A DNA stretch of 64,000 nucleotides, from NCBI RefSeq assembly GCF_007747215.1, contig NZ_CP036273.1, forward strand, positions 4,262,322 through 4,326,321, written 5' to 3'. The notes beneath the pieces are model-generated. The model saw only the letters and a list, made by a program, of their open reading frames with translations. It searched no databases and had not been told where the DNA came from. Below, one piece after another: positions 18,259 to 61,334 of this stretch (position 1 is its first letter; each line of letters starts with the position of its first letter). Made by a program: the position numbers and the translations under genes. The stretch comes from Urbifossiella limnaea (lineage in GTDB: Bacteria > Planctomycetota > Planctomycetia > Gemmatales > Gemmataceae).

Positions 18259-18262
18259 GCGA

Positions 18263-18334
18263 ACGGCCGGCGTCAGCCGGCTGGTCGTTGGTGCAGGTGC
18301 TTGCCACCCCGACCAGCCGGCTGACGCCGGCCGT
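18263..18334. repeat. Perfect 25-bp inverted repeat between convergent genes
   Basis: 18263-18287 and 18310-18334 are exact reverse complements, with a 22-base loop. The arms contain GGCGTCAGCC, shared with other inverted repeats in the window. Position between bamA and the convergent histidine kinase fits a two-way terminator; there is no T-run. Confidence 0.8.
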
Positions 18335-18354
18335 GCGCCCGATCCTCGTCCCAC

Positions 18355-30530: not shown

Positions 30531-30570
30531 GTGTAGCGATTCTCTTGAGCCGCGGTTTGATTCCCCGAAT

Positions 30571-30639
30571 GACCAATGACCCACCAATGACCAAGGAAGC
30601 CGATGCTGGTTTTCCTTGGCCATTGGTGGGTCATTGGTC
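30571..30639. repeat. 28-bp inverted repeat of the GACCAATGACC type
   Basis: 30571-30598 pairs with 30612-30639 with one mismatch and a 13-base loop. The flanking copy of the motif extends to the M50 protease stop at 30645-30647, so that gene ends TGACCAACGACC, directly into the repeat. A second, imperfect member lies at 32467-32550. It separates M50 from hisS and may end M50 transcription. Confidence 0.75.
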
Positions 30640-30644
30640 GTTGG

Positions 30645-31841
30645 TCATTCCCGCCGGTAGCGGGCGCTGAAGCGCTCCAGGAAGCGCCGCTCCTCGTCGG
30701 TCAGCGAGCCCATTCCGGTCGCGGCGATCTTGCCCAGCAGCTCCTCCATCCGCTCCTCGTCGCGGACGCGCTGGGCGTTCTCGGCGGCGATCTTCCGCGC
30801 CTTGCGGGCCTGCCACCAGCGGGCGAGCGCCCCCTGCTTCCGCTTCGGCCGCGGCGGGGGCTCGTCGTCCCGCTCCAGGCTCGTGTACCCGGCCGAGAAG
30901 TCGTACCCGAACGGCCCCTCGTCGGTGTCCAGCTGCTGGAGCCGCTGCGAGCACGAGTACAGCATGAACAGCGACAGCCCCATGAACAGCGTCTCGTTCG
31001 CCGCCACCGACACGATCAGGAAGATCAACGCGAACGCGAACCCGGTGTACGCCGCCACGGTCACGCCCCGGCGGAGGTCGGACCGGCCCCAGACCACCGA
31101 CTGGAGCACCTGCCCGCCGTCGAGCGGGTACGCCGGCACCAGGTTGAACAGGAGGAGCACCCACGACAGCCAGAAGGTGCGGTTCAGCCACACCGCCCAG
31201 CCGGGGGCGACGGCCCGCTCGCCGGGCATTCCCGCCGCCACTTCCGCGGCCGTCTCCGGCTTCCACGCCACGCGGCTCTGGAAGCCCGTCTCCTGCCGCT
31301 TCGTCAGCACGTCGTACAGCACGCTCTGCGGCAGCTGCTCGTTCGTGCCGGCCTTGTACACCTTCAGACCGTACTCGCTGGTGTGGTCGCGGCCGTCGCG
31401 GTAGTTGTACATCTCCGAGACGAACGGGTTGGCCAGCGGGTTCGCGTTCGGGACGAACCCGGACACGAGCAGGGGGACCGCCACGGCCACGCAGATGAGC
31501 GCGTTCACGGCCGGCCCGGCGACGGCGGTCAGGAGGTGCGCCCGCGGCGTGTTCGGGATCTCGACCATCGCCAGCCCGCCGAGCGGCCAGATGAGGATTT
31601 CGCGGGCCTCGCCGCCGAGCGCGCGGGCGGCGAAGGCGTGGCCGAACTCGTGCAGCAGGATGACGACGAACAACAGGACGATGGTGAACAGGAACACGTC
31701 GCCCCATTCGATGGGGTTGTCCTTGGCGGTGACCTGACGGACGAACAGGCCGAGCGTCACGATGATGAAGAAGACGTGCAGCTTGACCGGGATGCCGGAC
31801 GCCCGGAAGAGCGGTAATGCCCAGCTCATCGGATCGCGCAT
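30645..31841 (-). CDS. Site-2-protease-like (M50) membrane metalloprotease
   Basis: 398 residues. The zinc motif HEFGH lies in ILLHEFGHAFAARALGG, and PAYPLDGGQVLQ supplies the third ligand Asp, so the active site is complete. Several membrane helices surround it, and a Lys/Arg-rich cytoplasmic C-terminal tail of about 110 residues follows (ALARWWQARKARKIAAENAQR). An insertion of about 80 residues (NYRDGRDHTSEYGLKVYKAG region) between helices is larger than in minimal S2P proteins. No PDZ domain is evident. Possible roles are regulated proteolysis of anti-sigma factors or signal-peptide remnants. Its stop codon is part of the GACCAATGACC repeat. Confidence 0.87.
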   Translation of the reverse strand: MRDPMSWALPLFRASGIPVKLHVFFIIVTLGLFVRQVTAKDNPIEWGDVFLFTIVLLFVVILLHEFGHAFAARALGGEAREILIWPLGGLAMVEIPNTPRAHLLTAVAGPAVNALICVAVAVPLLVSGFVPNANPLANPFVSEMYNYRDGRDHTSEYGLKVYKAGTNEQLPQSVLYDVLTKRQETGFQSRVAWKPETAAEVAAGMPGERAVAPGWAVWLNRTFWLSWVLLLFNLVPAYPLDGGQVLQSVVWGRSDLRRGVTVAAYTGFAFALIFLIVSVAANETLFMGLSLFMLYSCSQRLQQLDTDEGPFGYDFSAGYTSLERDDEPPPRPKRKQGALARWWQARKARKIAAENAQRVRDEERMEELLGKIAATGMGSLTDEERRFLERFSARYRRE

Positions 31842-33839: not shown

Positions 33840-34955
33840 TCAGGGAGAGCCGCCGCGGGAGCGGCGGGGGAGTTCGTCGTACACCCGGGCGAACGGGGCG
33901 GCCATCCGCCCCGCGTCGAACCGCTCGGCCGCGCGGGCCTTCCCCGCCGCCCCGAACTGGGCCGCGGAGGCCGGGACCGACAGCAGGACGTGCGTGCGGG
34001 CCGACACCTGCGCCTTGTCGCCGACGGCGACCAGGAAGCCGGTTTCGCCGTCCTCGACGACCTCGGTCAGGTCCGGGTTGCCCCAGGCGACCACCGGCCG
34101 GCCGGCGGCCATCGCCTCCAGTGCAAGGTTCACGCCGCCGCGCGGCTGGAGCACCCACACCGCCTCGGCCAGCCCCAGCAGCGCCGGCAGGTCCGGCCGC
34201 GCGCCGGCGAAGTGAACGCGCACGTCGTCGAAGGCAAGGGACTGCACGAACGCGTCGAGGTCGGCCCGGCCGGGGCCATCCCCGACGACCACGAGGTGCA
34301 GGTCGGGGAAGGTGTATCGCAGGATGTCGAACGCCCAGATGGCGGACTTCAGGCCGTCGCTCGGTTCGAGCCTGCCGGCTGTGAGGATGAGGCGAGCCGT
34401 CGGCGGCAGCCCGAGGTCGTTCAGGACCGCGGCGCGGTCCGGGGTCGGGGGGGCGGGTTCGACCGCGGGGGGGATGCGCGTCAAGTTGTCCCCGACAACG
34501 CCGAGCCGGCGGTACGCGTCGGCCTCGGCCCACGACGCGGCGACGACACGGTCCGCGGCGCGGAGCGCGCGCGTTGCCGCCCACCCGCCAAAGCCGGTGC
34601 CGGGGTGCGCCGCCGCGGACGCGACCAGCGGCGGCCCGCCCCAGCGACTGAGGGCGCGGCCGGCCTGCACGGCCGACGGCCCCCACGCGTGGACCGCCGT
34701 GGGGGCGAACGCGGCGGCCAGGGTCCGCAGCTTCCGCCGACCGGCCGGGTCGAACGCCGACCGCAGCGGTGTCGCCTGCACGCTCACGCCGGCGGCGCGG
34801 AGGCGAACGGCGGCATCCGTGTCGTCATTCCCGAGAACCGCGACGGCGGGCGTGACCCCGTCCGCCGCGAGCCGCGGCAGCAGGAGCGCGAGTTGCTTCG
34901 CGGCGCCGGTGGCGCCGAGGTCGGAGGCCAGGAACAGCAGGCGGGCGGCGGTCAC
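33840..34955 (-). CDS. Family 4-type glycosyltransferase next to glgC
   Basis: 371 residues of GT-B fold. N-terminal LLFLASDLGATGAAKQLALL and C-terminal LILTAGRLEPSDGLKSAIWAF plus LGLAEAVWVLQPRGGVNLALEAMAAGRP match GT4 enzymes; the usual EX7E end is modified (GGVNLALEAMA). The GTG start overlaps the hpt stop by 4 bases (GTGA). Adjacency to glgC hints at a role in glycogen or another alpha-glucan, but it is not a standard GlgA and the donor is unknown. Confidence 0.82.
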   Translation of the reverse strand: MTAARLLFLASDLGATGAAKQLALLLPRLAADGVTPAVAVLGNDDTDAAVRLRAAGVSVQATPLRSAFDPAGRRKLRTLAAAFAPTAVHAWGPSAVQAGRALSRWGGPPLVASAAAHPGTGFGGWAATRALRAADRVVAASWAEADAYRRLGVVGDNLTRIPPAVEPAPPTPDRAAVLNDLGLPPTARLILTAGRLEPSDGLKSAIWAFDILRYTFPDLHLVVVGDGPGRADLDAFVQSLAFDDVRVHFAGARPDLPALLGLAEAVWVLQPRGGVNLALEAMAAGRPVVAWGNPDLTEVVEDGETGFLVAVGDKAQVSARTHVLLSVPASAAQFGAAGKARAAERFDAGRMAAPFARVYDELPRRSRGGSP

Positions 34956-35473
34956 GCGGCCGGCCCGTCGAGGACGCCGATGTACGGCAGGTGGCGGTGC
35001 TCGTCGTTGAAGTCGAGCCCGTAGCCGACGACGAACCGGTCGGGGATGGTGAACCCGACGAAGTCCGGGTCGAACGGCACCTCCTGCCGCCCGACCTTCC
35101 GCAGCAGCACGCCGGCCTTGACCGTCTCGGCCCCCCGGTCGAGCAGGTGGGCCACCACCCGGGTCAGCGTCTTGCCGGTGTCGAGGATGTCGTCGAGGAG
35201 AAGGACGTGCCGGCCGCGGATGTCGGGGAGGAGTTCGTCGCGGATGAGGAGCTTGCCGGGGGTGGTGGCCTCGCCGCGGTAGCTCGACGCGGTGATGAAC
35301 GCGACCCGCACGGGAAGGTCGATGCGGCGGATGAGGTCGGCCATGAAGACGAGGCAGCCGGTGAGGATGCCGACGACGGTGACCGGCCGGCCGTCGTGGT
35401 ACGCGGCCCCGATCTCCGCCGCCATGCGGTCGATGCGCTCGCGGATCTCGTCCGCGGTGATGAGCACGTCCAT
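34952..35473 (-). CDS. hpt: Hypoxanthine phosphoribosyltransferase
   Basis: 173 residues. Salvages hypoxanthine or guanine to IMP/GMP with PRPP. The PRPP loop VLLLDDILDTGKTLT, the pyrophosphate loop GILTGCLVFMADLIRRI, the flexible loop ASSYRGEATTP, and the purine-site end DRFVVGYGLDFNDEHRHLPYIG are all family-typical. Length matches (170-180). First gene of a run with a glycosyltransferase and glgC. Upstream, in the divergent spacer, lies a perfect 29-bp inverted repeat. Confidence 0.94.
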   Translation of the reverse strand: MDVLITADEIRERIDRMAAEIGAAYHDGRPVTVVGILTGCLVFMADLIRRIDLPVRVAFITASSYRGEATTPGKLLIRDELLPDIRGRHVLLLDDILDTGKTLTRVVAHLLDRGAETVKAGVLLRKVGRQEVPFDPDFVGFTIPDRFVVGYGLDFNDEHRHLPYIGVLDGPAA

Positions 35474-35510: not shown

Positions 35511-35592
35511 GGCGAACCGGCGGCGTCGGCCGCCGGGTGAGGGTGGCAGGTTGCCCACGCGCACACCCGGCGGCCGACGCCGCCGGTTCGCC
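35511..35592. repeat. Perfect 29-bp inverted repeat in a divergent spacer
   Basis: 35511-35539 and 35564-35592 are exact reverse complements with a 24-base loop. The outer ends read GGCGAACCGG/CCGGTTCGCC. Both flanking genes point away, so it cannot be a terminator for either. The right edge continues TTCCAATAGACT, matching the edge of the element at 45375-45453 (TTCCGATATTCT). Confidence 0.85.
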
Positions 35593-35598
35593 TTCCAA

Positions 35599-35604
35599 TA
35601 GACT
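35599..35604 (+). promoter_or_regulatory. -10-like TAGACT at the edge of an inverted repeat
   Basis: TAGACT lies 7 bases past the right arm of the repeat at 35511-35592. CCGACG inside the arm (35574-35579) is 19 bases upstream, a weak -35 candidate. Transcription would start near 35611, about 34 bases before the exonuclease ATG. The same spacing occurs at 45435-45465. Confidence 0.35.
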
Positions 35605-35644
35605 TATCGCGGTTCGCCCGTCGTCCGCGACCCGTGGAGCGCCG

Positions 35645-36202
35645 ATGGCCAAGCGGCTCGATCAGGTTCTCGTCATCGACATCGAATCGACCTGCTGGGA
35701 CGGCGGCTACCCGCCGAAGGGGCAGAGCAACGACATCATCGAGATCGGCCTGTGCCCGCTGGAGCTGAGCACCGGCCGGCGGCTGGAGAAGAAGAGCATC
35801 CTGGTGCGGCCGGAGCGCTCGACGGTGAGCCCGTTCTGCACGCAACTGACGACGCTGACGCAGGACCAGGTGGCCGGCGGCGTGGCGTTCAAGGACGCCT
35901 GCAAGATGCTGGAGGACGAGTACCTGTCGCAGGCCCGGCTGTGGGCGAGCTTCGGCGACTACGACCGGAAGCAGTTCGACAAGCAGTGCCGTGAGACGGG
36001 CGTGCGCTACCCGTTCGGCCCGAGCCACCTGAACATCAAGACGCTATTCGCGGCCGGCCGGGCGCTGCCGTCGGAGTTGGGTCTGCCGCAGGCGATGGCC
36101 CTGAGCGGCCTGAAGTTGGAGGGCACCCACCACCGCGGCCACGACGACGCCTGGAACATCGCCGCCGTGCTGTGGGAGATGCTGCGGAAGCTGCGGGGGT
36201 GA
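35645..36202 (+). CDS. DEDDh 3'-5' exonuclease (ERI1/KapD-like)
   Basis: 185 residues, a single exonuclease domain. ExoI VLVIDIESTCWDGG carries the Asp-Glu pair, ExoII contains ARLWASFGDYDRKQF with Asp, and ExoIII HHRGHDDAWNIA carries His and Asp. This is the DEDDh pattern of the ERI-1/KapD subgroup, which trims RNA or ssDNA ends. No polymerase domain. It is followed 3 bases later by a lineage-specific protein gene. Confidence 0.88.
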   Translation: MAKRLDQVLVIDIESTCWDGGYPPKGQSNDIIEIGLCPLELSTGRRLEKKSILVRPERSTVSPFCTQLTTLTQDQVAGGVAFKDACKMLEDEYLSQARLWASFGDYDRKQFDKQCRETGVRYPFGPSHLNIKTLFAAGRALPSELGLPQAMALSGLKLEGTHHRGHDDAWNIAAVLWEMLRKLRG

Positions 36203-36205
36203 GCG

Positions 36206-36943
36206 ATGACGGAGGCGGCGATAGCGTGGGTCGGCTTCAATGACGCCTGGCTAATGGTGGACTGGATCGGCACTCATCTCAGCGAGCGGAAACACCGCTT
36301 GCTTGCAGTCGCGTGTTGCCGCCGGATTGATGAACTGATCCTGCACTTTCCGCAGGCGCTGCGTGCGGTCGTACTCGCAGAACGAATCGCCGACGGAGGG
36401 CCGGTGACCATCGAAGCGATGACCCTGCGCCGTGATATGCCGGAACGCGCGTTCCTTTGGATCGACGGTTACCGGCAAGAAAAGAAGAACAACCTCATGT
36501 ACCATGCTGGGAACGCCGCGGCGAACTGCCTTGCTGGGATACCCGCCCCACCGAACTCATGGGCAGGTAGCTACGGCGGCCGTCTTGAGCAGGCCGTTCA
36601 GGACACCTCCTATCTCGTCGCCCATTCACGACGCCGGGATGATCGGGAGGCCTTGAGATCGCAGCATCTCGATGAACAGCGGCGGACCTTGGTGCCACTG
36701 GTCCGGTGTGTGTCCGGCAATCCATTCCACCCGTCACCGTTCTCACCGACATGGCGCACCGAGGCCGTGGTCGGGCTCGCGCGCGGGATGTACGAGTCGC
36801 GGGGCTTCGGCCCCATGCCGGTCCTCGCGGACGCGCTCGAGGACGCCGGCTGCGCCGATGCCGCCATCCTCACCCACTGCCGCGGCGACGGGCCGCACGT
36901 CCGCGGGTGCTGGGTCGTGGACCTCGTGCTCGGTAAGGAGTAG
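36206..36943 (+). CDS. Lineage-specific protein with HCRG-GCWVVD C-terminus
   Basis: 245 residues. The N-terminal part contains RKHRLLAVACCRRI; the C-terminal ~75 residues run NPFHPSPFSPTWRTEAVVGLARGMY, then PVLADALEDAGC, then HCRGDGPHVRGCWVVDLVLGK (each block shown in part). I recall this C-terminal block from large paralogous families in Gemmata genomes, where it has no known function. The N-terminal two thirds (36206-36740) are markedly less GC-rich than the C-terminal end, suggesting a mosaic or recently duplicated gene. It starts 3 bases after the exonuclease stop. Confidence 0.7.
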   Translation: MTEAAIAWVGFNDAWLMVDWIGTHLSERKHRLLAVACCRRIDELILHFPQALRAVVLAERIADGGPVTIEAMTLRRDMPERAFLWIDGYRQEKKNNLMYHAGNAAANCLAGIPAPPNSWAGSYGGRLEQAVQDTSYLVAHSRRRDDREALRSQHLDEQRRTLVPLVRCVSGNPFHPSPFSPTWRTEAVVGLARGMYESRGFGPMPVLADALEDAGCADAAILTHCRGDGPHVRGCWVVDLVLGKE

Positions 36944-36962
36944 CGCGACGGGCGCGGAACGT

Positions 36963-37039
36963 CCGGAGCCCCGAAGGGGCGGCAGGCCTCCCAGGGCTGA
37001 CGCCCTGGGCTATTGACTGCCGCCCCTTCGGGGCTCCGG
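36963..37039. repeat. 23-bp inverted repeat with nested hairpin
   Basis: 36963-36985 and 37017-37039 are exact reverse complements. The 31-base loop holds its own perfect hairpin CCCAGGGC/GCCCTGGG (36990-36997/37002-37009) with a TGAC loop, giving the GGGCTGACGCCC motif. The arms contain the self-complementary GCCCCGAAGGGGC, so several alternative folds exist. Confidence 0.8.
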
Positions 37040-37129
37040 GCACACCCGTCGCCTGACGCCGGCCGCTCGCCGTCGGCGCCCCGCGCCGTATCCTGCCCGA
37101 ATCGCTCTCGCCGCCTCCAGGACCGACCC

Positions 37130-37825
37130 GTGTTCGCGTTCGCCCTCGTGGTCTGCCTGGCCGGCATCTTCTGCCTCGCGCCGCTCGCGCTGTACCTTCT
37201 CTGGCTCGCCGTCCTCAACAAGAAGCGCCGCCCCACCGTCGTCCCCGGCGGGTGGGACTTCGCCGCCCTCTGCGGCGGCCTGTCCGGGTTCATCCTGTTC
37301 GGCGGCGGCCTGGTCCTGACGCTGCTCCAGTCGAACGCCCGCTACCTGTTCCGCCGCAACCTCGAAGCCCTCCGCGCCGCCTGGGCGGAGGAGCAGATGG
37401 CGTGGCTCGCCGTCGCCGCGGGCTACCTGTTCGTCGTCGTCGGCGGCGGGCTGTTCACGCTCGTGCTGCGGCGGCGGTCGCTGGTGATTTACAACGTCGA
37501 GCCGGGGGCGGTCGAGGCGGCGGTCGCCGAGGTGTTCGACCACATGGGCAAGGCCGTGACGCGCACCGGCAACCTGTGGTCCGGCCCCGACCCGCTGTTC
37601 GAGCTGGAGCCGTTCGCGGCCGGGAAGAGCGTCTCGCTCCGCTGGGTGAGCAACGACGACCGGCTGTTCGAGGAAGTGACCCGCCACCTCCGGCCGGCCG
37701 TCGCCGACCTGGCGCCCGCGGAGAACCCCACGGCCCGCTGGCTCACGACGGCGGCGGTCGGCATCCTGGTCGTGGTAGTGTTCTTCGTCGGCGTGATGGC
37801 AACGAGCCTGGGGGCGTGGCGGTAA
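37130..37825 (+). CDS. Membrane protein of unknown function
   Basis: 231 residues. Two hydrophobic helices near the N-terminus (FAFALVVCLAGIFCLAPLAL and GGLSGFILFGGGLVLTLL) and a third after a short loop (AWLAVAAGYLFVVVGGGLF) are followed by a soluble domain of about 110 residues, then a C-terminal helix (VGILVVVVFFVGVMATSL). The start is GTG at 37130 with CAGGA upstream and TATCCT at 37089-37094 as a possible -10; a longer frame from 37013 would translate the edge of the inverted repeat. No family recognised. Confidence 0.7.
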   Translation: MFAFALVVCLAGIFCLAPLALYLLWLAVLNKKRRPTVVPGGWDFAALCGGLSGFILFGGGLVLTLLQSNARYLFRRNLEALRAAWAEEQMAWLAVAAGYLFVVVGGGLFTLVLRRRSLVIYNVEPGAVEAAVAEVFDHMGKAVTRTGNLWSGPDPLFELEPFAAGKSVSLRWVSNDDRLFEEVTRHLRPAVADLAPAENPTARWLTTAAVGILVVVVFFVGVMATSLGAWR

Positions 37826-37838
37826 CGGGCGGCCCGCT

Positions 37839-38990
37839 TCACGCCGCGCGCCGGAGCGCGACCCCCTGCCCCGTCAGCAGCGCCACCACGCGGCGCACCT
37901 GCTCGTGGCCGTCGCGCAGCAGGAAGCCCGAATCGCGGCCGAAACTCTTTGCGCCCAGCAAGAAGTACCCCGGCTCGCGAGTCTCGGGCCGGCCCGTCGG
38001 CTCGTCCACCTTCAGGCCCGTGCTCAGCCGCAGGTCGGCGCGGTAGCCGACGCACGCGATCACCCGCTCGACCTCCCACGTCACCGGCTTCCCGGCCCCG
38101 CGGCCGCCAACGCGGAAGCCCTGCTCCGGGCCGTGACACACCACCTCGTCCAACAGTGTTTGTGCGTGGAATTCGAGGTTACCGTCGCAGCGGGTGGCCA
38201 GCGAGTTGGCCTTCACCGCGAGGCGGTCGCGCTCCTTCAGCGGGTCGTTCGCCAGCCGCGGCAGCGGGGCGCCGCGCGGGCCGTTCGTGAGCCAGAACAC
38301 CCACGTCTCGGCGTGCTCCTCGGCGAGCGCGGCCAGTTGCAGCACCGTCGCCGCGGCCGTGTACCCGTCGCCGATCACGGCGATACTCTTGCCGGCGTAG
38401 TGGCCGCGGCGGTCGCCGAGAACGTCCTCGAAGCCGGCGGCGATGTGCGGCCGGGCGGCCAGCTCGCCGACCGCGGGGAGGTTGCCGTCGCCGAGCCAGT
38501 TCGGCGTGTTGAACGTGCCGGTGCAGTCGAGTACGGCGTCGGCGGTGTCGATCCGCTCGGCGCCGTTCGCGCCGCGGAGTAGCAGCCGGAACGGGCGGCG
38601 GCCGTCGTCCGGCTCCGATTTCTTGAGCGACCCGGCCCGGCCGATCGCCAGCACGGCGTGCTGCGGGTTCATGCACTCAAGCAGCGCCTCGGACTCGGCC
38701 AGCGGCACGAGGTACGCTTCGCGGAACTGCCGGCCCGTGAGTAGGTCAGTGTCCGCGGGTACGTCCTTGGCGCGGCGCTCCTGGCGAAGCGTTTGCAGGC
38801 CCAGACTCGTCGTATTCATGCCGAACGGCGTGAACATGCGCGCGTGGCCCCAGCGGGCGAGGTGCTCGCCGACCTGGCCGCGGTCGTAGACGCTGACGCG
38901 GCAGCCGGCGGCCTTCGCGGCCAGCGCCGCCTCGACGCCGACCGGTCCGGCCCCGATCACCGCCACCCGCGGCGGCTCCGCCTTCACCAT
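37839..38990 (-). CDS. FAD/NAD(P)-dependent oxidoreductase
   Basis: 383 residues. The N-terminus VAVIGAGPVGVEAALAAKAAG is an FAD-binding Rossmann motif; a second nucleotide-binding motif SIAVIGDGYTAAATVLQLA lies mid-protein, and VERVIACVGYRADL near the end matches flavin-dependent monooxygenase or thioredoxin-reductase-like proteins. There is no CXXC redox pair. The order of domains resembles pyridine nucleotide-disulfide oxidoreductases with a single-component flavoprotein layout. Substrate unknown. The start follows GGGGGGTG. Confidence 0.82.
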   Translation of the reverse strand: MVKAEPPRVAVIGAGPVGVEAALAAKAAGCRVSVYDRGQVGEHLARWGHARMFTPFGMNTTSLGLQTLRQERRAKDVPADTDLLTGRQFREAYLVPLAESEALLECMNPQHAVLAIGRAGSLKKSEPDDGRRPFRLLLRGANGAERIDTADAVLDCTGTFNTPNWLGDGNLPAVGELAARPHIAAGFEDVLGDRRGHYAGKSIAVIGDGYTAAATVLQLAALAEEHAETWVFWLTNGPRGAPLPRLANDPLKERDRLAVKANSLATRCDGNLEFHAQTLLDEVVCHGPEQGFRVGGRGAGKPVTWEVERVIACVGYRADLRLSTGLKVDEPTGRPETREPGYFLLGAKSFGRDSGFLLRDGHEQVRRVVALLTGQGVALRRAA

Positions 38991-39072
38991 GGCACCCCCC
39001 CTGCGCGACCGGCGGACCATACCCGCACTGCGGTGCGGGGGCAACACGTGTCCGCCCCACCGCCCCGCCGGG

Positions 39073-39081
39073 TGATACAAT
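39073..39081 (+). promoter_or_regulatory. Extended -10 promoter TGATACAAT
   Basis: TG at 39073-39074, one base, then TACAAT (39076-39081): an extended -10 element that does not need a strong -35. It would start transcription about 30 bases before the pseudokinase ATG at 39117. Confidence 0.55.
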
Positions 39082-39116
39082 CCCCTCACCCGCCGACCCC
39101 GGACCGAGCCCCGCCG

Positions 39117-40520
39117 ATGCCCTCCGAATCGATCGCCGGCTTCCTCGACGAAGCGAAGGCGAATCGCGTCCTGATCCCCGAGCAGGTCGAGCAGCTGATC
39201 CGCCAGCCCGACGTGCCTCAGGAAAACCTCGACGCCCTGTGCGCGTACCTGGAAGACCGCGGGGCGCTGACCCGCTTCCAGGCCGACGCCCTCCGCGCCG
39301 GCCGCGGGGGCGACCTCACGTTCGCCGGCTACCCCGTCCTCGACGAGATCGGCCCCTGCCCCGGCGGCACCGCCTACCGGGCACTCCACCCGTCGCTCCG
39401 CACCCCGGTCGTGCTCCGCCGCCTGCGCCCCGCCGCGCTCCTGCCGGCGGACAACCCGGCGGCCCTGGTGCAGCGGGCGCGGTCGTTCCCGACGTACCAC
39501 CCGAACCTGCTGGCGCCGCTGGACGCGGGGGCGAGCGGCGACGAGTTCTACGCCGCCGTCGAAGAGCCGGCCGACATGGACACGCTCGAACAGCTGGTCG
39601 TCGAGATCGGCCCGATGCCGGCGTTCCTGGCCGCGGAGTTCGGCCGGCAGGCGGCGTCGGCCCTACGCACCGTGGACGAGCGCGGCCTCTGGCACGGCGA
39701 CGTCCGCCCCGCGAGCCTCCTCGCGGGCCCGATGACGGTGAAGTCGACCGACGACGGCCACGCGAAGCGCCGCCCCGCGCCGAACGCCGCGGTGAAGGTC
39801 GCGGAGCTCGGGCTGGTGCCGCTCCGCCCCGCGGCGTCGGCCGCACCACCGGCCCTGGGGGCGATCGCGTACCTCCCGCCGGAGCGCGTCGATCACGCCT
39901 GGTACGACGCCCGCGGCGACCAGTACGGCCTCGGGGCCAGCCTGTACTACCTGCTGACCGGCAAGCCGCCGTTCGCCGCGTCGAACCCTGACGAACTCCT
40001 CCAGCAGGTGCGCACCGCGGAGCCGCTGCCGCTCGGCTCGCTGCGGCCGGACCTGCCGGCGCCGTTGATCGCCGTCGTCGAGCGGCTGATGGCGAAGCGG
40101 CCCGAGCAGCGGTTCGCCCGCTTCGCCGACGTGGAGATGGCACTGATCCCGTACTGCCGGCCGGGCACGGTCGCGCCGGCGGTGCCCGTTCCCGCGCACC
40201 CGACGCCGGTGCCGGAAGCGGCGGCCGTGCCGGAGTCGGCCGAGTCGTTCCCGGCCGCGGGCGCGGAGTGGGGGGCGCCGGACACCGACGCCTTCACCAC
40301 GTCGCACGCCGCCGCGGGGCCGGTGTACAAGGAGCGCAAGCCCGCCGACCAGAAGCGGACGCGGCTCCTGATCATCCTCGGCCTCTGCCTGCACACGAGT
40401 GCCATGCTGCTGCTGGCGGCCTGGATTTTCGGGTGGTTCGAGCCGAGCCCGGAGCCGACGCCGGTGCCGCCGAAGAACGAGAAGCAGAAGGAGAACAAGA
40501 AGAACGTCAGGAAGGCGTGA
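39117..40520 (+). CDS. Kinase-fold protein, probable pseudokinase A
   Basis: 467 residues: an N-terminal helical module of ~65 residues (VLIPEQVEQLIRQ, ALTRFQADALRAG), a Ser/Thr-kinase-like domain (about 70-360), a Pro/Ala linker, one membrane helix (LLIILGLCLHTSAMLLLAAW) and a Lys-rich tail. Key residues are changed. The ATP lysine is Arg101 (VVLRR), the glycine loop is degraded (IGPCPGGTAY), and DFG is Glu230-Leu-Gly. Asp195 of the catalytic loop (HGDVRPASL) is kept. It therefore probably does not phosphorylate; a membrane-tethered signalling scaffold is likelier. Its stop overlaps the next ATG (TGATG). Confidence 0.85.
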   Translation: MPSESIAGFLDEAKANRVLIPEQVEQLIRQPDVPQENLDALCAYLEDRGALTRFQADALRAGRGGDLTFAGYPVLDEIGPCPGGTAYRALHPSLRTPVVLRRLRPAALLPADNPAALVQRARSFPTYHPNLLAPLDAGASGDEFYAAVEEPADMDTLEQLVVEIGPMPAFLAAEFGRQAASALRTVDERGLWHGDVRPASLLAGPMTVKSTDDGHAKRRPAPNAAVKVAELGLVPLRPAASAAPPALGAIAYLPPERVDHAWYDARGDQYGLGASLYYLLTGKPPFAASNPDELLQQVRTAEPLPLGSLRPDLPAPLIAVVERLMAKRPEQRFARFADVEMALIPYCRPGTVAPAVPVPAHPTPVPEAAAVPESAESFPAAGAEWGAPDTDAFTTSHAAAGPVYKERKPADQKRTRLLIILGLCLHTSAMLLLAAWIFGWFEPSPEPTPVPPKNEKQKENKKNVRKA

Positions 40521-41329
40521 TGAAGCCGTGCGTCAGTCAGGCCTGCACGATGCCCGCGGCCGTCGCCGACGACCTGGCCGCGTTCGCCGCCGCCGGCCTC
40601 CCCGCCGCCGAGGTGTGGCTGACGAAGCTGGAAAAACACCTCGAAGCGGTGTCGGCCGAGTCCACGGCCGCGTTCCTGGCCGAACAGGGGATAACACTCG
40701 CGGCCGCGGCCTACCAGGGCGGGCTGCTCCTGTCGCAGGGTGAGGCCCGGCGGGCGCACTTCGAGCACTTCCGCCGGCGGCTCGAGCTGTGCCAGCGCTT
40801 CGCCATCCCGACGCTGCTCGTCGCCGCCGACTTCGCCCAGAAGCCGGACGGCCCCAGCCTCGGCCGGGCGCTCGTGTCGCTGACGGAAGCCGCCAAGTGG
40901 GCCGCGGGCTTTGGGGTGACGCTCGGCCTGGAGTTCCGCGGCGGCGACGCCTTCCTGAACAACCTGGACACCGCACTCACCCTGGTCGAGCGCTGCGGCG
41001 AGCCGAACGTCGGCGTCTGCCTCGACGTGTTCCACTACTACAAGGGGCCGAGCAAGCCCGAAGACCTGGAGCGGCTCACGGCGAAGAACGTGGTTCACGT
41101 GCAAGTCTGCGACGTGGCCGGCGTTCCCCGGGAGGTGATGACCGACGCCGACCGCGTGCTGCCCGGCGAGGGCGACTTCCGGCTGGAGCCGATCGTCCGC
41201 CGGTTGCGCGAGATCGGCTACGCCGGGTACGTGTCGCTGGAACTGAACAACCCGGTGCTGTGGCAGCTGCCCCCCGCCCAGGTGGCGGACGCGGCGATGA
41301 AATCTCTCACGCGATTATTACGATCCTGA
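40520..41329 (+). CDS. Xylose isomerase-like TIM-barrel protein
   Basis: 269 residues of the sugar phosphate isomerase/epimerase superfamily. Landmarks: TLGLEFRGGDAFLN, VGVCLDVFHYYKGPSK, VVHVQVCDVAGVPREVM and a C-terminal YVSLELNNP, giving the Glu-Asp-His-Glu metal ligands expected of IolE/IolI-like proteins. Translationally coupled to pseudokinase A by a one-base TGATG overlap, an uncommon pairing. It is only distantly similar to the other isomerase at 27872-28672. Confidence 0.82.
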   Translation: MKPCVSQACTMPAAVADDLAAFAAAGLPAAEVWLTKLEKHLEAVSAESTAAFLAEQGITLAAAAYQGGLLLSQGEARRAHFEHFRRRLELCQRFAIPTLLVAADFAQKPDGPSLGRALVSLTEAAKWAAGFGVTLGLEFRGGDAFLNNLDTALTLVERCGEPNVGVCLDVFHYYKGPSKPEDLERLTAKNVVHVQVCDVAGVPREVMTDADRVLPGEGDFRLEPIVRRLREIGYAGYVSLELNNPVLWQLPPAQVADAAMKSLTRLLRS

Positions 41330-41345
41330 ACGCCGAGGACGCCCG

Positions 41346-41834
41346 ATGTTCGACCGCGAGCGGCGGCTTTACGCAGACCAGTACGGTTACGCCCGGCAGC
41401 TGACCGCCGACATCCCGGACGAGGAGTTCGCCGAGGAGCCGGTGCCGGGGATGAACCACCCGGCGTGGATCCTCGGCCACCTCACCGTCACCGCCGACTT
41501 CGGCCTCCACCTGCTCGGCGAGAAGCCGGTGGCCCCGGAGGGTTGGGGCGCCATGTTTTCGCCCGGCTCCGTCCCCGACCCGAACCGCGGCAACTACCCC
41601 ACGAAGGCCGAGTACCTGAACGCCTACGAGGCGGCGCACGCCGGCCTGTCCGCGGCCGTTGCGGCCCTCGACGACGCCCGCGCCGCGAAGCCGAACCCCG
41701 TGGCGAGCCTGAAAGCGCGCTTCCCAACGCTCGGTGATCTGGTGGCGCACCTGCTGACGACGCACGAGGCGACGCACCTCGGCCAGCTGTCGGCGTGGCG
41801 CCGCATTATGGGGAAGAAGGGCGTGTCGGTGTAA
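41346..41834 (+). CDS. DinB-family four-helix protein
   Basis: 162 residues. The three metal-binding histidines of DinB/YfiT proteins are placed as expected: NHPAWILGHLTVTADF (first pair region) and THEATHLGQLSAWRR (final pair). The family includes thiol transferases (bacillithiol, mycothiol) and DNA-damage-inducible proteins; function here is open. A TACGAT hexamer at 41319-41324 inside the end of the upstream gene could be a -10 element. Confidence 0.85.
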   Translation: MFDRERRLYADQYGYARQLTADIPDEEFAEEPVPGMNHPAWILGHLTVTADFGLHLLGEKPVAPEGWGAMFSPGSVPDPNRGNYPTKAEYLNAYEAAHAGLSAAVAALDDARAAKPNPVASLKARFPTLGDLVAHLLTTHEATHLGQLSAWRRIMGKKGVSV

Positions 41835-41853
41835 CCGGTGGCCAGGAGACGGT

Positions 41854-41907
41854 GGACAGGAGGCAGACCGAACGCGACAACTCTGATTGTCCCCTGTCTC
41901 CTGTTCC
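41854..41907. repeat. Short imperfect inverted repeat (GGACAGGAGGCAG type)
   Basis: GGACAGGAGGCAG (41854-41866) pairs with CTGTCTCCTGTTCC (41894-41907) with one mismatch and one bulge. It lies between the DinB gene and a secreted hydrolase and resembles a degenerate member of the intergenic repeats. Evidence is weak. Confidence 0.35.
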
Positions 41908-41935
41908 CTGTCCCCTTCCCGCCGGAGCCCTCCCC

Positions 41936-42982
41936 ATGTTCCGCCTCCTCGCACTCGCCACGGCGCTCGGCGTGGCTCTCACCGCCACCGCCCGCCAGGA
42001 CACGCCCGCCAAGAAGGCCGCGCCGGCCACCAAGGCCGCCCAGCCCACCAAGAAGGACGCCCCGAAGGTCAGCGGCCCCGCACCGACGGCCGAGAACGTC
42101 CACTACGGCCCGCACGAGCGCCAGGTGCTCGACTTCTACAAGGCCAACAGCGCGACGCCGACGCCGGTCGTGTTCGCCATCCACGGCGGCGGCTGGGTGA
42201 ACGGCAGCAAGGACGGCTACCGCGGCGCTGCCAAGCGGTACAACGACGCCGGCATCTCGCTGGTCGCCATCAACTACCGGATGGTGCCCGAGGCCGCGGA
42301 GAAGAAGATCGACCCGCCGGTGAAGTGGCCGCTGGAGGACGCGGCGCGGGCGCTGCAGTTCGTGCGGTCGAAGGCGACGGATTGGAACATCGACAAGGTG
42401 CGCATCGGCGCCACCGGCGGCTCGGCCGGCGGGTGCTCGTCGCTGTACCTGCTGTACCACGACGACATGGCCGACCCGAAGAGTTCGGACCCCGTGGCCC
42501 GCGAGAGCACGCGCCTCTACTGCGCCGCGGTGGACGGCGCGCAGACGACGCTCGACCCGAAGGTGCTGCGGGAGTGGATGCCGAACTACACCTACGGCGG
42601 CCACGCCTTCGCCATCGTCGGCCCGGACGGCAAGCGCGACGCCGGGTTCAACACGTACCACGCGAAGCGGGACGAGTTGCTGCCGAAGATCAACACGTAC
42701 TCGCCGATGGCGCATGTGTCGAAGGGCGATCCGCCGGTGTTCCTCTTTTACAGCGGCATGACGAAGCAGAAGGACAAGGACGGGAAGGACGTGACCGTGC
42801 CGTCGGCGACGGTGAAAGGCGAGTCGAAGCCCGACCCGACGCACTCCCCGCTGCTCGGCGCGATCCTGATGGAGAAACTCCAGGCCGAGGGCGTGGAGGG
42901 CATCTTCGTCCACCCCGGGATGCCGCACCCGAAGTACAAGAGCAGCGCCGACTACCTGATCGACCGGCTGAAGGCGAAGTAG
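41936..42982 (+). CDS. Secreted alpha/beta-hydrolase (esterase/BD-FAE-like)
   Basis: 348 residues. Residues 1-20 are a signal peptide (MFRLLALATALGVALTATAR), followed by a Lys/Ala/Pro linker. The fold is shown by the oxyanion HGGGW, SLVAINYRMVPE, and the nucleophile elbow GATGGSAGGCSS. Candidate catalytic His is in FVHPGMPHPKY. This fits carboxylesterases related to bifunctional feruloyl/acetyl-xylan esterases and to sulfatase-rich planctomycete polysaccharide degraders. The acid residue is not certain. Confidence 0.85.
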   Translation: MFRLLALATALGVALTATARQDTPAKKAAPATKAAQPTKKDAPKVSGPAPTAENVHYGPHERQVLDFYKANSATPTPVVFAIHGGGWVNGSKDGYRGAAKRYNDAGISLVAINYRMVPEAAEKKIDPPVKWPLEDAARALQFVRSKATDWNIDKVRIGATGGSAGGCSSLYLLYHDDMADPKSSDPVARESTRLYCAAVDGAQTTLDPKVLREWMPNYTYGGHAFAIVGPDGKRDAGFNTYHAKRDELLPKINTYSPMAHVSKGDPPVFLFYSGMTKQKDKDGKDVTVPSATVKGESKPDPTHSPLLGAILMEKLQAEGVEGIFVHPGMPHPKYKSSADYLIDRLKAK

Positions 42983-43043
42983 CAAGGCGCGCCGGGGTCG
43001 GTACCGTTAAAATACATGATCGAGTACTGACTCCGGGGGGATC

Positions 43044-43265
43044 ATGACACAGACCATCGCGGCGCATTTCGACGGGCGTGTGATCGTCCCGGACGGCCCG
43101 GTCGAGTTGCCGACCGGCCTCCCGCTTCGCATCCGCGTCGAGTTGGCTGACAACCCCGAGCCGCGATTCGCCGCTCTACTCGGCTTCGCAGCCGACCTTC
43201 CGGACGCACCGCCCGACCTTGCGGCCCAACACGACCACTACCTGACCGGGACGCCCAAGCGGTGA
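43044..43265 (+). CDS. Putative antitoxin of a PIN toxin pair
   Basis: 73 residues. The N-terminal half (IAAHFDGRVIVPDGPVELP, then PLRIRVEL) looks like the beta-hairpin repeat of AF2212-like or AbrB-type small antitoxins; the C-terminal half (FAALLGFAADLPDAPPDLAAQ) would be the toxin-binding tail. It precedes the PIN gene with a 4-base GTGA overlap, the normal order for such modules. TAAAAT at 43008-43013 is a likely -10 and GGGGGGA sits just before the ATG. Antitoxins of this type usually repress their own promoter. Confidence 0.75.
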   Translation: MTQTIAAHFDGRVIVPDGPVELPTGLPLRIRVELADNPEPRFAALLGFAADLPDAPPDLAAQHDHYLTGTPKR

Positions 43266-43687
43266 CAACGCCCCTGGGCGACGTGTTCGCCGACACCGTC
43301 TTCTGGGTCGCCCTGGTCGTTCGGGCCGACCAGTACCACGCCCGGGCGCAGGTGTGGTCCCAGCGGGTGACGGGCCGGATCGTCACGACCGACGCAGTAC
43401 TCACGGAGACTGCCAACACGCTGGCCCGACCTGACTGGCGGAGTCAGGCGGTGGCTCTGATCGACCATTTACTCGGGCGGGCCGACGTGGAGGTCGTGCG
43501 GGCCGGTGCGGACCTGTGGGGCCGGGCATGGGACTTGTATCGGCGGCGACCGGACAAAGGGTGGGGGCTAACTGACTGCCTGTCGTTCGTCGTCATGGCC
43601 GACATCGGGCTGACCGACGCGTTGACGGCCGACGACCACTTCCGCCAAGCCGGGTTCCGGGCCGTACTTTTGGAAGAGCCCAGCTAA
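43262..43687 (+). CDS. PIN-domain (VapC-like) ribonuclease toxin
   Basis: 141 residues. The four acidic PIN residues are visible: Asp11 (FADTVFW), Glu49 (LTETAN), Asp105 (GLTDCLSF) and Asp124 (LTADDHF). PIN toxins cut RNA, often tRNA or rRNA, when their antitoxin is degraded. GTG start overlapping the antitoxin stop couples translation. Active-site residues look intact, so the module is probably functional. Confidence 0.87.
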   Translation: MTTPLGDVFADTVFWVALVVRADQYHARAQVWSQRVTGRIVTTDAVLTETANTLARPDWRSQAVALIDHLLGRADVEVVRAGADLWGRAWDLYRRRPDKGWGLTDCLSFVVMADIGLTDALTADDHFRQAGFRAVLLEEPS

Positions 43688-43733
43688 GACGATCGTAGCT
43701 CGGTGACGAAGGCCAACACTGGGGGAGGTCGCC

Positions 43734-44114
43734 GTGTGCCGGTACGCGTTTGTGGGGCCGTACAAACGACACTTCGCCTGCTTCAAGTGCCGAAAGGGAT
43801 TCAAACGACCTCCGGTTGCGGATCGGGCAGCCTCTGAGGCCGACCCCGCACCGTGCCCGGCATGCGGGGACTGGATGACCGAGATGGGACTGGACTTCAA
43901 AACTCCTCCCCACGACGACACCGAACAGTGGGCCGTCATCGAGCACGTCCGTCGGCTGGGGTATGGGCACATGGACTGCGGTTGTGGCGGAAATGGACCA
44001 CTACCGACCAAGTGGGGCCAAGTACCAGGCTTCCTGGCTGCCCGGCATCCGGAATCGGCTGGCGCGGGGCTGGTAGCACGGTTTGCCAATGGACGTGAAG
44101 GCGACAGCAATTAA
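43734..44114 (+). CDS. Small cysteine-rich (zinc-ribbon) protein
   Basis: 126 residues. FACFKCRKGFKR and PCPACGDWM form two CXXC pairs, followed by MGLDFKTPPHDDTEQWAVI; the C-terminal part has MDCGCGG. I recall short relatives in Bacteroidetes and planctomycetes with the same ribbon and the KPPxxDxxQW block, function unknown. The start is GTG at 43734 after a strong GGGGGAGG. Composition is less GC-rich than its neighbours. Confidence 0.72.
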   Translation: MCRYAFVGPYKRHFACFKCRKGFKRPPVADRAASEADPAPCPACGDWMTEMGLDFKTPPHDDTEQWAVIEHVRRLGYGHMDCGCGGNGPLPTKWGQVPGFLAARHPESAGAGLVARFANGREGDSN

Positions 44115-44193
44115 CGGCGAGTTGTCGCGGAAACAACCCGGTTACAGTCACCAGCACCCGCCATCCAAACACGCTCCTCACACCCCGGACACG

Positions 44194-45363
44194 ATGCGCG
44201 TCGTCGAACTCGAAGCCCGGCACGTCCGGATCGCCCTGCGGCGGAAGGTCACCCACGCCAGCCACTCCCGCACCGACACCGACAACGTCGTCGTCCGCTG
44301 CGTCCTCGCCGACGGCACCGTCGGCCACGGCGAGGGCGTGCCGCGCGACTACGTCACCGGCGAGACCATCGACTCCTGCCTCGACCGGCTCGCCGCGAGC
44401 GACCTTCCCGCGCAACTCACCCCCTGCGACGACTTCGTCGCGGCCGTCCACCTCGCCGAGCGGTTGAAGCTCGCCCCCGAGCCCGGCGACGACCGGCTCA
44501 TCCAGGGGAACGCAGCCCGCTGCGCCCTCGAACTCGCCGTCCTCGACGCCTATGGGCGGGCGTTCGGCGAGCCGCTGATGAACGTCACCCGGGCCGTCGC
44601 CCCGGACCTGTACGAGCCGCGCGAGCGCGTCCGCTACAGCGGCGTCATCGGCAACCCGAAGGGGTGGAAGGGCCGCGCCTACCCGCTCGTCTACCGCCTC
44701 GCCGGGTTCGAGCAGGTGAAGTTGAAGGTCGGCATCCCCGACACCGACGACGTGAAGCGGACCAGGCGCACCCGCCGCTGGCTCGGCTCGAAGATGGACC
44801 TGCGCATCGACGCCAACGAGGCATGGAGCGCCGCCGAGGCCGCGGACAAGATTCGGGCGCTGGAGCCGTTCGGCATCACGAGCGTCGAGCAGCCGGTGCC
44901 GCACGAGGAGGTCGCCGGGCTGGCCGCGGTGCGGAAGGCGGTGAGCACGCTGCTGATGCTCGACGAGTCGCTGTGCGGAGCCGTGGACGGCGAGCGGGCG
45001 GTCGCCGGTGGCTGGTGCGACCTGTTCAACCTGCGGCTGTCGAAGTGCGGCGGGTTCATCCCGACCCTGCGGCTGGCGCAGATGGCGAAGCGGGCCGGCC
45101 TCGGCTATCAGCTCGGCTGTCAGGTCGGCGAGACGGGCATCCTGTCGGCCGCGGGGCGGCACTTCGCCACGAGCGTCTGCGGCATCCGCTACCTGGAAGG
45201 CTCCTACGACCGGCACCTGGTGTGGGAAGACCTGACCGCCGAAGACCTGACGTTCGCCCGCAACGGCACCGCGCCGATGCTCGTCGGCGCCGGGCTGGGC
45301 GTGAGCGTCGAGCCCGCGAAGGTGGACTGGGTGACGGTGAAGCGGGTGTCGCTGATCGGGTGA
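44194..45363 (+). CDS. Enolase-superfamily enzyme (muconate cycloisomerase/dipeptide epimerase-like)
   Basis: 389 residues. The barrel carries the MLE-subgroup residues: Lys in VKLKVG, Asp in RIDANEAW, Glu in SVEQPVP, Asp in LMLDESLC, and Lys in NLRLSKCGG. The N-terminal capping domain starts MRVVELEARHVRIAL. Dipeptide epimerase, cycloisomerase or o-succinylbenzoate synthase are all possible; no neighbouring pathway gene decides. The start at 44194 gives the family N-terminus; a frame from 44083 would add 37 residues. Confidence 0.85.
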   Translation: MRVVELEARHVRIALRRKVTHASHSRTDTDNVVVRCVLADGTVGHGEGVPRDYVTGETIDSCLDRLAASDLPAQLTPCDDFVAAVHLAERLKLAPEPGDDRLIQGNAARCALELAVLDAYGRAFGEPLMNVTRAVAPDLYEPRERVRYSGVIGNPKGWKGRAYPLVYRLAGFEQVKLKVGIPDTDDVKRTRRTRRWLGSKMDLRIDANEAWSAAEAADKIRALEPFGITSVEQPVPHEEVAGLAAVRKAVSTLLMLDESLCGAVDGERAVAGGWCDLFNLRLSKCGGFIPTLRLAQMAKRAGLGYQLGCQVGETGILSAAGRHFATSVCGIRYLEGSYDRHLVWEDLTAEDLTFARNGTAPMLVGAGLGVSVEPAKVDWVTVKRVSLIG

Positions 45364-45374
45364 CGAAAATGCCT

Positions 45375-45453
45375 GGCGAGCCGGGGGGCGTCAGCCCCCG
45401 GATTCTCGTTCCACCCGCCGCGAGAATCCGGGGGCTGACGCCCCCGGCTCGCC
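45375..45453. repeat. 33-bp inverted repeat with one bulge
   Basis: 45375-45408 pairs with 45421-45453, complete apart from one extra G in the left arm, with a 12-base loop. The arms contain GGCGTCAGCC. Outer ends read GGCGAGCCGG/CCGGCTCGCC and the right edge continues TTCCGATATTCT, closely matching the element at 35511-35592. Confidence 0.85.
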
Positions 45454-45459
45454 TTCCGA

Positions 45460-45465
45460 TATTCT
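45460..45465 (+). promoter_or_regulatory. -10-like TATTCT six bases before a hydrolase ATG
   Basis: TATTCT is followed by CACCCC and the ATG at 45472, predicting a leaderless message. CTGACG inside the inverted-repeat arm (45435-45440) lies 19 bases upstream and could serve as a weak -35. So the repeat may supply the promoter. Confidence 0.42.
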
Positions 45466-45471
45466 CACCCC

Positions 45472-46314
45472 ATGACCGCCCCGCTGCTCTCGCAGTTTCG
45501 CGCCTCCGACGGCTACTGCTTTTACACCCGCTTCTACCCCGCAGCCGGCGAGCCGCGCGGGCGGCTCGTCTTCGTCCACGGCATCCGCAGCCACGGCGGC
45601 TGGTACACGCGGTCGTGTTCCGACTTCGCCGCGGCCGGGTTCGACGTTCACTTCCTCGACCGCCGCGGGGCGGGCCTCAACACCGTGGGTCGCAGTGATG
45701 CCCCGTCCTTTCGCCGACTGATCGACGACGCGGCCGAGTACGTGCAGCACCTGCGAGCGGAGAAGGCGTGGCTACCGGTCGTGCTCGCCGGCATCTCGTG
45801 GGGCGGCAAGCTCGCGGCCGCGCTGCCGTACCGCCGGCCGGGGCTGATCGACGGGATGGTGCTGCTCTGCCCGGGGCTCGTGCCGAGGGTGGCGCCGCCG
45901 CTGCCGACTCGCGCCCGGATCGCGCTGGCGCGGGTGTTCCGGCCGGGGAAGTTCTTCCCGATCCCGCTGAACGAGCCGGAGCTGTTCACCGCCGACGCCG
46001 AGTGGCGTGCGTTCCTCGACCGCGAGCCGCACGGCCTCCGCGCGGCCACGGCCCGCTTCCTGTTCGCCAGCTTCGGCCTCGACATCTACCTGCGGCGTGC
46101 CGTGAAGCGCGTGACGGTGCCGACGCTGCTCGTGCTCGGCGAGCACGACCGCATCATCGACAACGCGCAAACGCGGCTCTACGCCGGCCGCTTCGGGCGG
46201 CCGGTCGAGTTGCTCGACTACCCCGGGGCGCACCACACCCTGGAGTTCGAGCCGCCGGGCCACCCGTGGGTGGGCGACGTCACGAACTGGATGGAACGCC
46301 GGCTCGGGGTGTGA
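45472..46314 (+). CDS. Alpha/beta-hydrolase, monoacylglycerol lipase-like
   Basis: 280 residues, no signal peptide. The HGxxSHGGWY region (FVHGIRSHGGWYT), nucleophile elbow GISWGGKLAA, acid region LGEHDRIIDNA and His in GAHHTLEFE make a full catalytic triad of the serine aminopeptidase S33/lysophospholipase group. It would hydrolyse small esters or monoglycerides in the cytoplasm. It follows an inverted repeat whose edge leads into a -10-like hexamer. Confidence 0.88.
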   Translation: MTAPLLSQFRASDGYCFYTRFYPAAGEPRGRLVFVHGIRSHGGWYTRSCSDFAAAGFDVHFLDRRGAGLNTVGRSDAPSFRRLIDDAAEYVQHLRAEKAWLPVVLAGISWGGKLAAALPYRRPGLIDGMVLLCPGLVPRVAPPLPTRARIALARVFRPGKFFPIPLNEPELFTADAEWRAFLDREPHGLRAATARFLFASFGLDIYLRRAVKRVTVPTLLVLGEHDRIIDNAQTRLYAGRFGRPVELLDYPGAHHTLEFEPPGHPWVGDVTNWMERRLGV

Positions 46315-51034: not shown

Positions 51035-51101
51035 CGTTAGGCCGGGGCGCGAGCCCCGTCGGGGATCAGGAGCCCGACGGGGCTCGCGCCCCGGCCTAAC
51101 G
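51035..51101. repeat. Perfect 29-bp inverted repeat
   Basis: 51035-51063 and 51073-51101 are exact reverse complements with a 9-base loop; GAGCCG/CGGCTC outside extend the symmetry after mismatches. The left arm starts CGTTAGGCCGGGGCGCGAGC. It lies between two genes on the same strand and could terminate the dehydrogenase transcript; no T-run. Confidence 0.85.
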
Positions 51102-54338: not shown

Positions 54339-54382
54339 GTTGCCGCTTGCGGCGTAGCGGCCGCCAGGCCGCAAGCGGCAAC
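54339..54382. repeat. 15-bp inverted repeat (TTGCCGCTTGCGGC type)
   Basis: 54339-54353 and 54368-54382 are exact reverse complements with a 14-base loop. The left arm starts right after the stop codon at 54336-54338. GCCGCTTGCGGC is shared with the element at 58740-58775. Located between convergent genes, it suits a two-way terminator. Confidence 0.75.
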
Positions 54383-58739: not shown

Positions 58740-58775
58740 CGCCGCTTGCGGCGTCGCGCGACGCCGCAAGCGGCG
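58740..58775. repeat. 17-bp inverted repeat (GCCGCTTGCGGC type)
   Basis: 58740-58756 and 58759-58775 are exact reverse complements, with only two bases between them so the hairpin tip must open. It shares GCCGCTTGCGGC with the element at 54339-54382. Lies between the CobW stop and the rhodanese start, both on the minus strand; a likely terminator for the CobW gene. Confidence 0.75.
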
Positions 58776-60178: not shown

Positions 60179-60267
60179 TTTTGACAGGATAACAGGATGA
60201 AGCAGGATGCCGAATAAATACTCGGTCTTGGTTCGGCATCCTGCTTCATCCTGTTATCCTGTCAAAA
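60179..60267. repeat. Perfect 36-bp inverted repeat in a divergent spacer
   Basis: 60179-60214 and 60232-60267 are exact reverse complements with a 17-base AT-rich loop. The arms contain TTTTGACAGGATAACAGGAT. Its flanking genes (CobW-like on the minus strand, hydroxyacid dehydrogenase on the plus strand) both point away, so terminator function for them is excluded. Composition is far less GC-rich than the surroundings, which suggests a mobile or foreign origin. TTGACA inside each arm resembles a -35 element. Confidence 0.88.
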
Positions 60268-61262: not shown

Positions 61263-61334
61263 GGCCGCAAAAAGGCACAAAAGACACAAAATAAGACCGT
61301 TCATTTTTGTGTCTTTTGTGCCTTTTTTGCGGCC
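61263..61334. repeat. 29-bp inverted repeat with one bulge (AAGGCACAAAAGACAC type)
   Basis: 61263-61291 pairs with 61305-61334; the only defect is five As in the left arm against six Ts in the right. The loop is about 13 bases. AT-rich arms stand out in this genome. It lies 11 bases after the dehydrogenase stop and 24 bases before the PfkB ATG; the T-run on the right arm could help terminate. Confidence 0.82.

Follow-up and report, generated by a model that had tools for sequence, protein, structure and literature searches.

The two strong hairpins in the window (the whole 64,000-nucleotide stretch analysed here, positions 4262322-4326321 of the single-contig 7.80 Mb genome G000) are, judged from the sequence, REPINs of a Gemmataceae genome. 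We are confident in a model where these elements were spread by a RAYT transposase and inserted beside host promoter sequence, the likeness of their edges being coincidental. Apparent in the letters themselves are the anatomy of the elements and their presence in many copies, the occurrence of the same or sister REPINs on the flanks of RAYT genes, both here and in relatives, and congener sites free of the element. A preliminary description had proposed a repeat that carries or completes a promoter and could act as a switch; an outward promoter is not conserved among the copies, the edge in question being found at 2 of 54 ends. The features of the two sites are as follows.

34952-35473, minus strand: hypoxanthine phosphoribosyltransferase gene (hpt), ATG 35473, TIGR01203 above cut-off
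35511-35592, no strand: REPIN 1, class a GGCGAACCGGCGGCGTCGGCCGCCGGGTG, an inverted doublet, intergenic, where hpt and the exonuclease gene diverge
35511-35539, plus strand: left REP arm of REPIN 1
35564-35592, minus strand: right REP arm of REPIN 1, matching the left arm with 100% complementarity and including CCGACG at 35574-35579
35599-35604, plus strand: TAGACT, a -10-like hexamer in host DNA
35645-36202, plus strand: RNase_T-type 3'-5' exonuclease gene (KapD-like), ATG 35645
44194-45363, plus strand: enolase-superfamily (MR/MLE) racemase/epimerase gene, preceding REPIN 2
45375-45453, no strand: REPIN 2, class b GGCGAGCCGGGGGCGTCAGCCCCCGGATTC, an inverted doublet with one extra G in the left arm
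45375-45408, plus strand: left REP arm of REPIN 2
45421-45453, minus strand: right REP arm of REPIN 2, carrying CTGACG (45435-45440) as well as an in-frame TGA, which blocks read-through into the hydrolase frame
45460-45465, plus strand: TATTCT, a probable leaderless -10, exactly at -12 from the ATG
45472-46314, plus strand: alpha/beta hydrolase gene, whose congener starts overlap or read through the junction

The first element consists of perfect 29-nt arms around a 24-nt loop and the second of 33/34-nt arms around a 12-nt loop; their ends are GGCGAACCGG and GGCGAGCCGG, and their right flanks TTCCAATAGACT and TTCCGATATTCT. Because each arm is itself palindromic, the elements are inverted REP doublets, i.e. 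REPINs. As RNA, both hairpins are predicted to fold at approximately -82 kcal/mol (z about -10). The coordinates, edge bases, hexamers and 19-nt spacings of the preliminary description were all correct on re-reading the sequence: CCGACG and CTGACG each lie 19 nt ahead of their own hexamer, and the hydrolase ATG lies 6 nt past the second one. These -35 candidates are dictated by the palindrome (its GTCRG loop) and are present in most class a and b copies.

The relatedness of the outer ends holds genome-wide, as the pattern GGCGARCCGG-N(35-65)-CCGGYTCGCC has 27 matches across the 7.8 Mb chromosome, as against none for the reversed control; at least one of these matches (L007) is a single hairpin, not a doublet. 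The arms fall into three classes with common GGCGARCCGG ends: class a, CCGGCGGCGTCRGCCGCCGGGTG, which includes the 35511 copy; class b, CCGGGGGCGTCAGCCCCCGGATTC, which includes the 45375 copy; and class c, CCGGGAGCGTGAGCGACCGGAGT. Class a and b arms are perfect palindromes, and class c arms contain a tandem G/A mismatch. According to a rough ORF caller, most copies sit directly past stop codons, with tandem or convergent genes on either side, a placement just after stops that has been reported for REPs elsewhere (PMC3733652). The calls outside the window came from a simple GC3 script and give approximate context counts; owing to a spurious ORF, the script wrongly put the 35511 copy inside a gene.

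Two inverted REP palindromes around a short variable spacer, and many dispersed, mostly extragenic copies (27 end-matched; extragenic by the rough ORF caller), are both as expected of REPINs, and mobility is indirectly indicated by the congener G001, which lacks the element at both sites. The same-genus genomes share 72-94% identity with G000 in two flanking proteins, and their empty sites are not alignable base by base. The 5' GT[AG]G tetranucleotide was not found, the foot here being GGCGA(A/G). Since GT[AG]G is likewise missing from RAYT class 3 and subclass 2.6 (PMC6006769), its absence rules out the canonical RAYT subclasses only, and not REPINs as such.

The genome contains three Y1_Tnp matches, one of which (6913948-6914529) sits between two class-c REPINs; the best named match of the RAYT of this genome is from a Gemmataceae MAG. 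In a different planctomycete, a homologous RAYT (L092; 47% identity; 100% to G087) carries on its flanks class-a REPINs like the 35511 copy (L092/L203). Among 36 RAYT loci with full flanks, hairpins were present on both sides at 20 and on one side at 9, as against none and 6, respectively, of 32 control gene loci. The proteins P0001 and P0002 score above the PF01797 cut-off and below that of the NCBI REP_Tyr_transpos model. Their motifs, NHFH and YVLFKQ in P0001 and NHVH and YVLDGQ in P0002, provide the HUH and Y----Q signatures within the Y1_Tnp family that are expected of class 3 TnpA_Y1, a group found mainly in Planctomycetes, Acidobacteria and Proteobacteria and associated with atypical flanking hairpins (PMC6006769). 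Flanking hairpins are likewise present here, but with the foot GGCGA(A/G) in place of the expected CnGA.

No class-b RAYT was found, nor, in this genome, any RAYT flanked by class-a or class-b REPs; the sole member of the GGCGA-REP RAYT clade in this genome carries class c. Classes a and b may therefore be orphans, or may be mobilised in trans. Because the outer ends are identical, our simplest guess from the sequences is that the class-c RAYT acts in trans on both. The extra Y1 genes L046, L048 and L143 were considered as class-a or class-b RAYTs and rejected, as they are associated with other repeat families. L048 (986 kb) lies between copies of another REP family, GTTAGGCCGGGGCGCAAGCCCCG, and GCCGCTTGCGGC palindromes adjoin the RAYT-like gene L143.

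Several of these other families are also represented in the window. The REPIN at 51035-51101 (GTTAGGCCGGGGCGCGAGCCCC) belongs to the family that flanks L048, with 16 arm matches in the 1.84 Mb sampled, and the family of the REPIN at 18258-18339 (GGCGAACGGCCGGCGTCAGCCGGCTGGTCG) flanks a RAYT in congener G001 (L127). GCCGCTTGCGGC palindromes occur at 54339-54382 and 58740-58775 and are very common (69 strand matches in 1.84 Mb, each site counted twice as the palindrome is self-complementary). An AT-rich 43-nt inverted repeat with ACAGGATAACAGGATGAAGCAGGATG and a 3-nt loop (60179-60267) has more genomic copies and no transposase link was seen; units of AAAAAGGCACAAAAGACACAAAA form an inverted repeat at 61269-61327, and units of CCAATGACCAA form one at 30568-30650.

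At the first site, the hexamer beside the REPIN is also found where there is no REPIN. Upstream of the same exonuclease gene, G002 has CAATAGACTGAACCC, which includes CAATAGACT and with it TAGACT, and G001 has CCTAAACTGAACCC, with the hexamer TAAACT. In the 1.29 million strand-bases sampled, CAATAGACT occurs once, in the window itself. On the basis of this conservation in element-free congeners and the rarity of CAATAGACT, the sequence comparison identifies TAGACT as ancestral host sequence, older than REPIN 1, which would have landed just upstream of it. TAGACT may be a real host -10 element.

The second site is best read against a genome-wide signal. A 1.84 Mb sample of the genome gave 675 first-ATG starts of strongly coding-biased ORFs, and TANNNT lies at -12 from 28 of them, with approximately 2.8 at other positions; counts for any ATG concur (33 at -12 versus 6.3). 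The consensus of the -12 set is near TAGAAT, followed by a C-rich stretch up to the ATG. This peak is, by its sequence and position, a leaderless-promoter signature, the spacing fitting a -10 element with the start point at the A of the ATG. TATTCT is positioned exactly at the peak and is thus probably a real leaderless -10. The leaderless set showed neither a clear -35 nor a 19-nt preference among its 28 promoters, at least four of six matches to TTGACA being found at 17 nt in 3/28 and at 19 nt in 2/28, one of which is the window case. A start codon 12 nt from a TANNNT was found at only 1 of 54 REPIN ends, that of the 45375 copy. Because the leaderless set has no clear -35 and only this one end is so arranged, the promoter at the second site appears to belong to the flank, not the repeat. 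Both -10-like hexamers may be real host -10s, which bears out the preliminary description in part, but neither is part of the repeat. At the first site TAGACT or TAAACT is kept in congeners without a REPIN.

An extension of our preferred model is that insertion at 45375 broke a gene overlap and that a new, adjoining leaderless promoter rescued the hydrolase, with the REPIN serving only as an insulator; we consider this slightly less than an even chance. G001 and G005 have no REPIN at this junction, and there the hydrolase start and the stop codon of the preceding gene overlap; in G001 the pair leaves no gap. The right arm of REPIN 2 places a TGA in the hydrolase frame, so that, of the common start codons, just ATG 45472 remains usable, with TATTCT at -12. 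REPINs of other families occupy the same junction in G002 and G004, but there the frame runs through them and gives an N-terminal extension that ends in LTPPARL. Against the extension, TATTCT scores low among the -12 hexamers. As a separate observation, the G005 junction retains a stretch resembling a REP remnant, and the congener junction REPINs (L053 and L052, upstream of the hydrolase) could reflect either recurrent insertion or one old insertion.

We also considered that class a and b arms serve as a portable -35 (YYGACG), such that landing 6 nt before a TANNNT makes a promoter and the 45375 copy created a new leaderless gene. We regard this as very unlikely.

Also very unlikely, in our assessment, is a mobile promoter, in which the repeat brings an outward promoter composed of an arm-borne -35 and an edge leading into a -10, and activates the neighbouring gene. 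YYGACG does lie 19 nt ahead of TANNNT in both copies, with the second hexamer at the leaderless -12 position, and in G000 TANNNT is denser within 12 nt of the REPIN ends (6 near versus 2 far, 54 ends), two of these six hits being the cases of the preliminary description itself. Enrichment was judged by this near/far comparison; the random-flank background is mostly coding and too GC-rich for intergenic flanks. In relatives there was no TANNNT enrichment near the ends (2 at 76 ends, equal to background), and we rejected it as a property of the element, seen as it is in G000 only. The supposed conserved edge fared no better: in this genome TTCCRATA follows just two of the 54 ends, both in the window, leaving 52/54 without it, and it is missing at all 76 ends in relatives (0/76). 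No further copies share it, the outcome that the preliminary description had named as refuting its reading. Exact CCGGYTCGCCTTCCRATA matches in the 7.8 Mb are confined to the two window sites, and the number of end pairs matching at a minimum of 7 out of 8 bases (3) is close to the 2.4 +/- 1.6 obtained with random flanks. Because this many ends would yield such look-alike pairs, the shared edge is, on sequence grounds, at chance level, and the bases past it are host DNA whose likeness is coincidental. Furthermore, TAGACT predates the insertion, only the 45375 end has a start codon at the leaderless distance, neither site passes a sigma-70 scan, and the leaderless promoters of this genome have neither a clear -35 nor a preferred spacing of 19 nt.

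A candidate third edge match, TTCCGACTCACCCC at L007, was rejected, as it is the single hairpin noted above, lies between convergent genes, and its CTCACCCC corresponds to a stop-codon region read on the opposite strand; the match is coincidental. Separately, a REPIN family in G003 (L185-L193) has a conserved extension beyond the core end (AATGACAAT / TGTTGTTAC), unlike the classes in the window.

Least probable of all is that the hairpins are non-mobile intrinsic terminators or attenuators of local origin, which would suit their strong folding and the position of the 45375 copy 12 nt past a stop codon, but not the recurrence of the same sequence at unrelated sites, the sister copies around transposase genes, the orthologous G001 sites without the element, the copy in a divergent promoter region with no obvious use for a terminator, or the absence of a consistent downstream T-run.

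Our data are most consistent with RAYT-spread REPINs inserted beside host promoters. By analogy with E. coli TnpA-REP, a RAYT would copy the REPINs by single-strand cleavage and strand transfer, and each element would have been inserted between genes, beside host promoter sequence. The 35511 element would have come to lie just upstream of the pre-existing -10 (TARACT) of the exonuclease gene, and the 45375 element within a gene pair that overlaps in congeners, so that the hydrolase would now begin at ATG 45472, with a transcript that is most likely leaderless, from TATTCT at -12. By analogy with other REPs, for which the insulation or stabilisation of transcript ends by hairpins has been proposed (PMC3733652), these would be the most plausible roles of the RNA hairpins here.

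Overall, our work adds new REPIN families of an element kind that is already known. Whilst a genuine mobile promoter would have been of greater consequence, that reading is unsupported, and the repeat at both sites is an ordinary element beside promoters. The planctomycete (class 3) branch, of which little has been described, thereby gains well-defined REPIN families with a GGCGA foot, together with their RAYTs, and the leaderless -10 rule for this genome is open to testing.

The REPIN and RAYT systems of Pseudomonas fluorescens and E. coli (PMC3116915, PMC8049555) share with ours the inverted REPs, the variable spacer, the extragenic and multicopy state, and, for class c here, one RAYT gene lying between the same REPs. 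They differ in their GTAG/GTGG foot, as against GGCGA(A/G), and the elements described here comprise at least three arm classes with one outer end, of which a and b have no adjacent RAYT in this genome. The E. coli TnpA-REP/REP system (PMC8266576) is presumably alike in combining an HUH transposase with a single-stranded hairpin substrate, but its REPs are bulged and GTAG-led, whereas those of classes a and b here are perfectly palindromic and those of class c contain a tandem G/A mismatch. The class 3 TnpA_Y1, or REPtron-like, units of Planctomycetes and Acidobacteria (PMC6006769) resemble our system in phylum, in the Y----Q, NHxH and W[TA] motifs and in their multicopy atypical flanking hairpins; their published foot is CnGA and their palindromes are weak, whereas those described here have GGCGA(A/G) before the stem and form strong palindromes.
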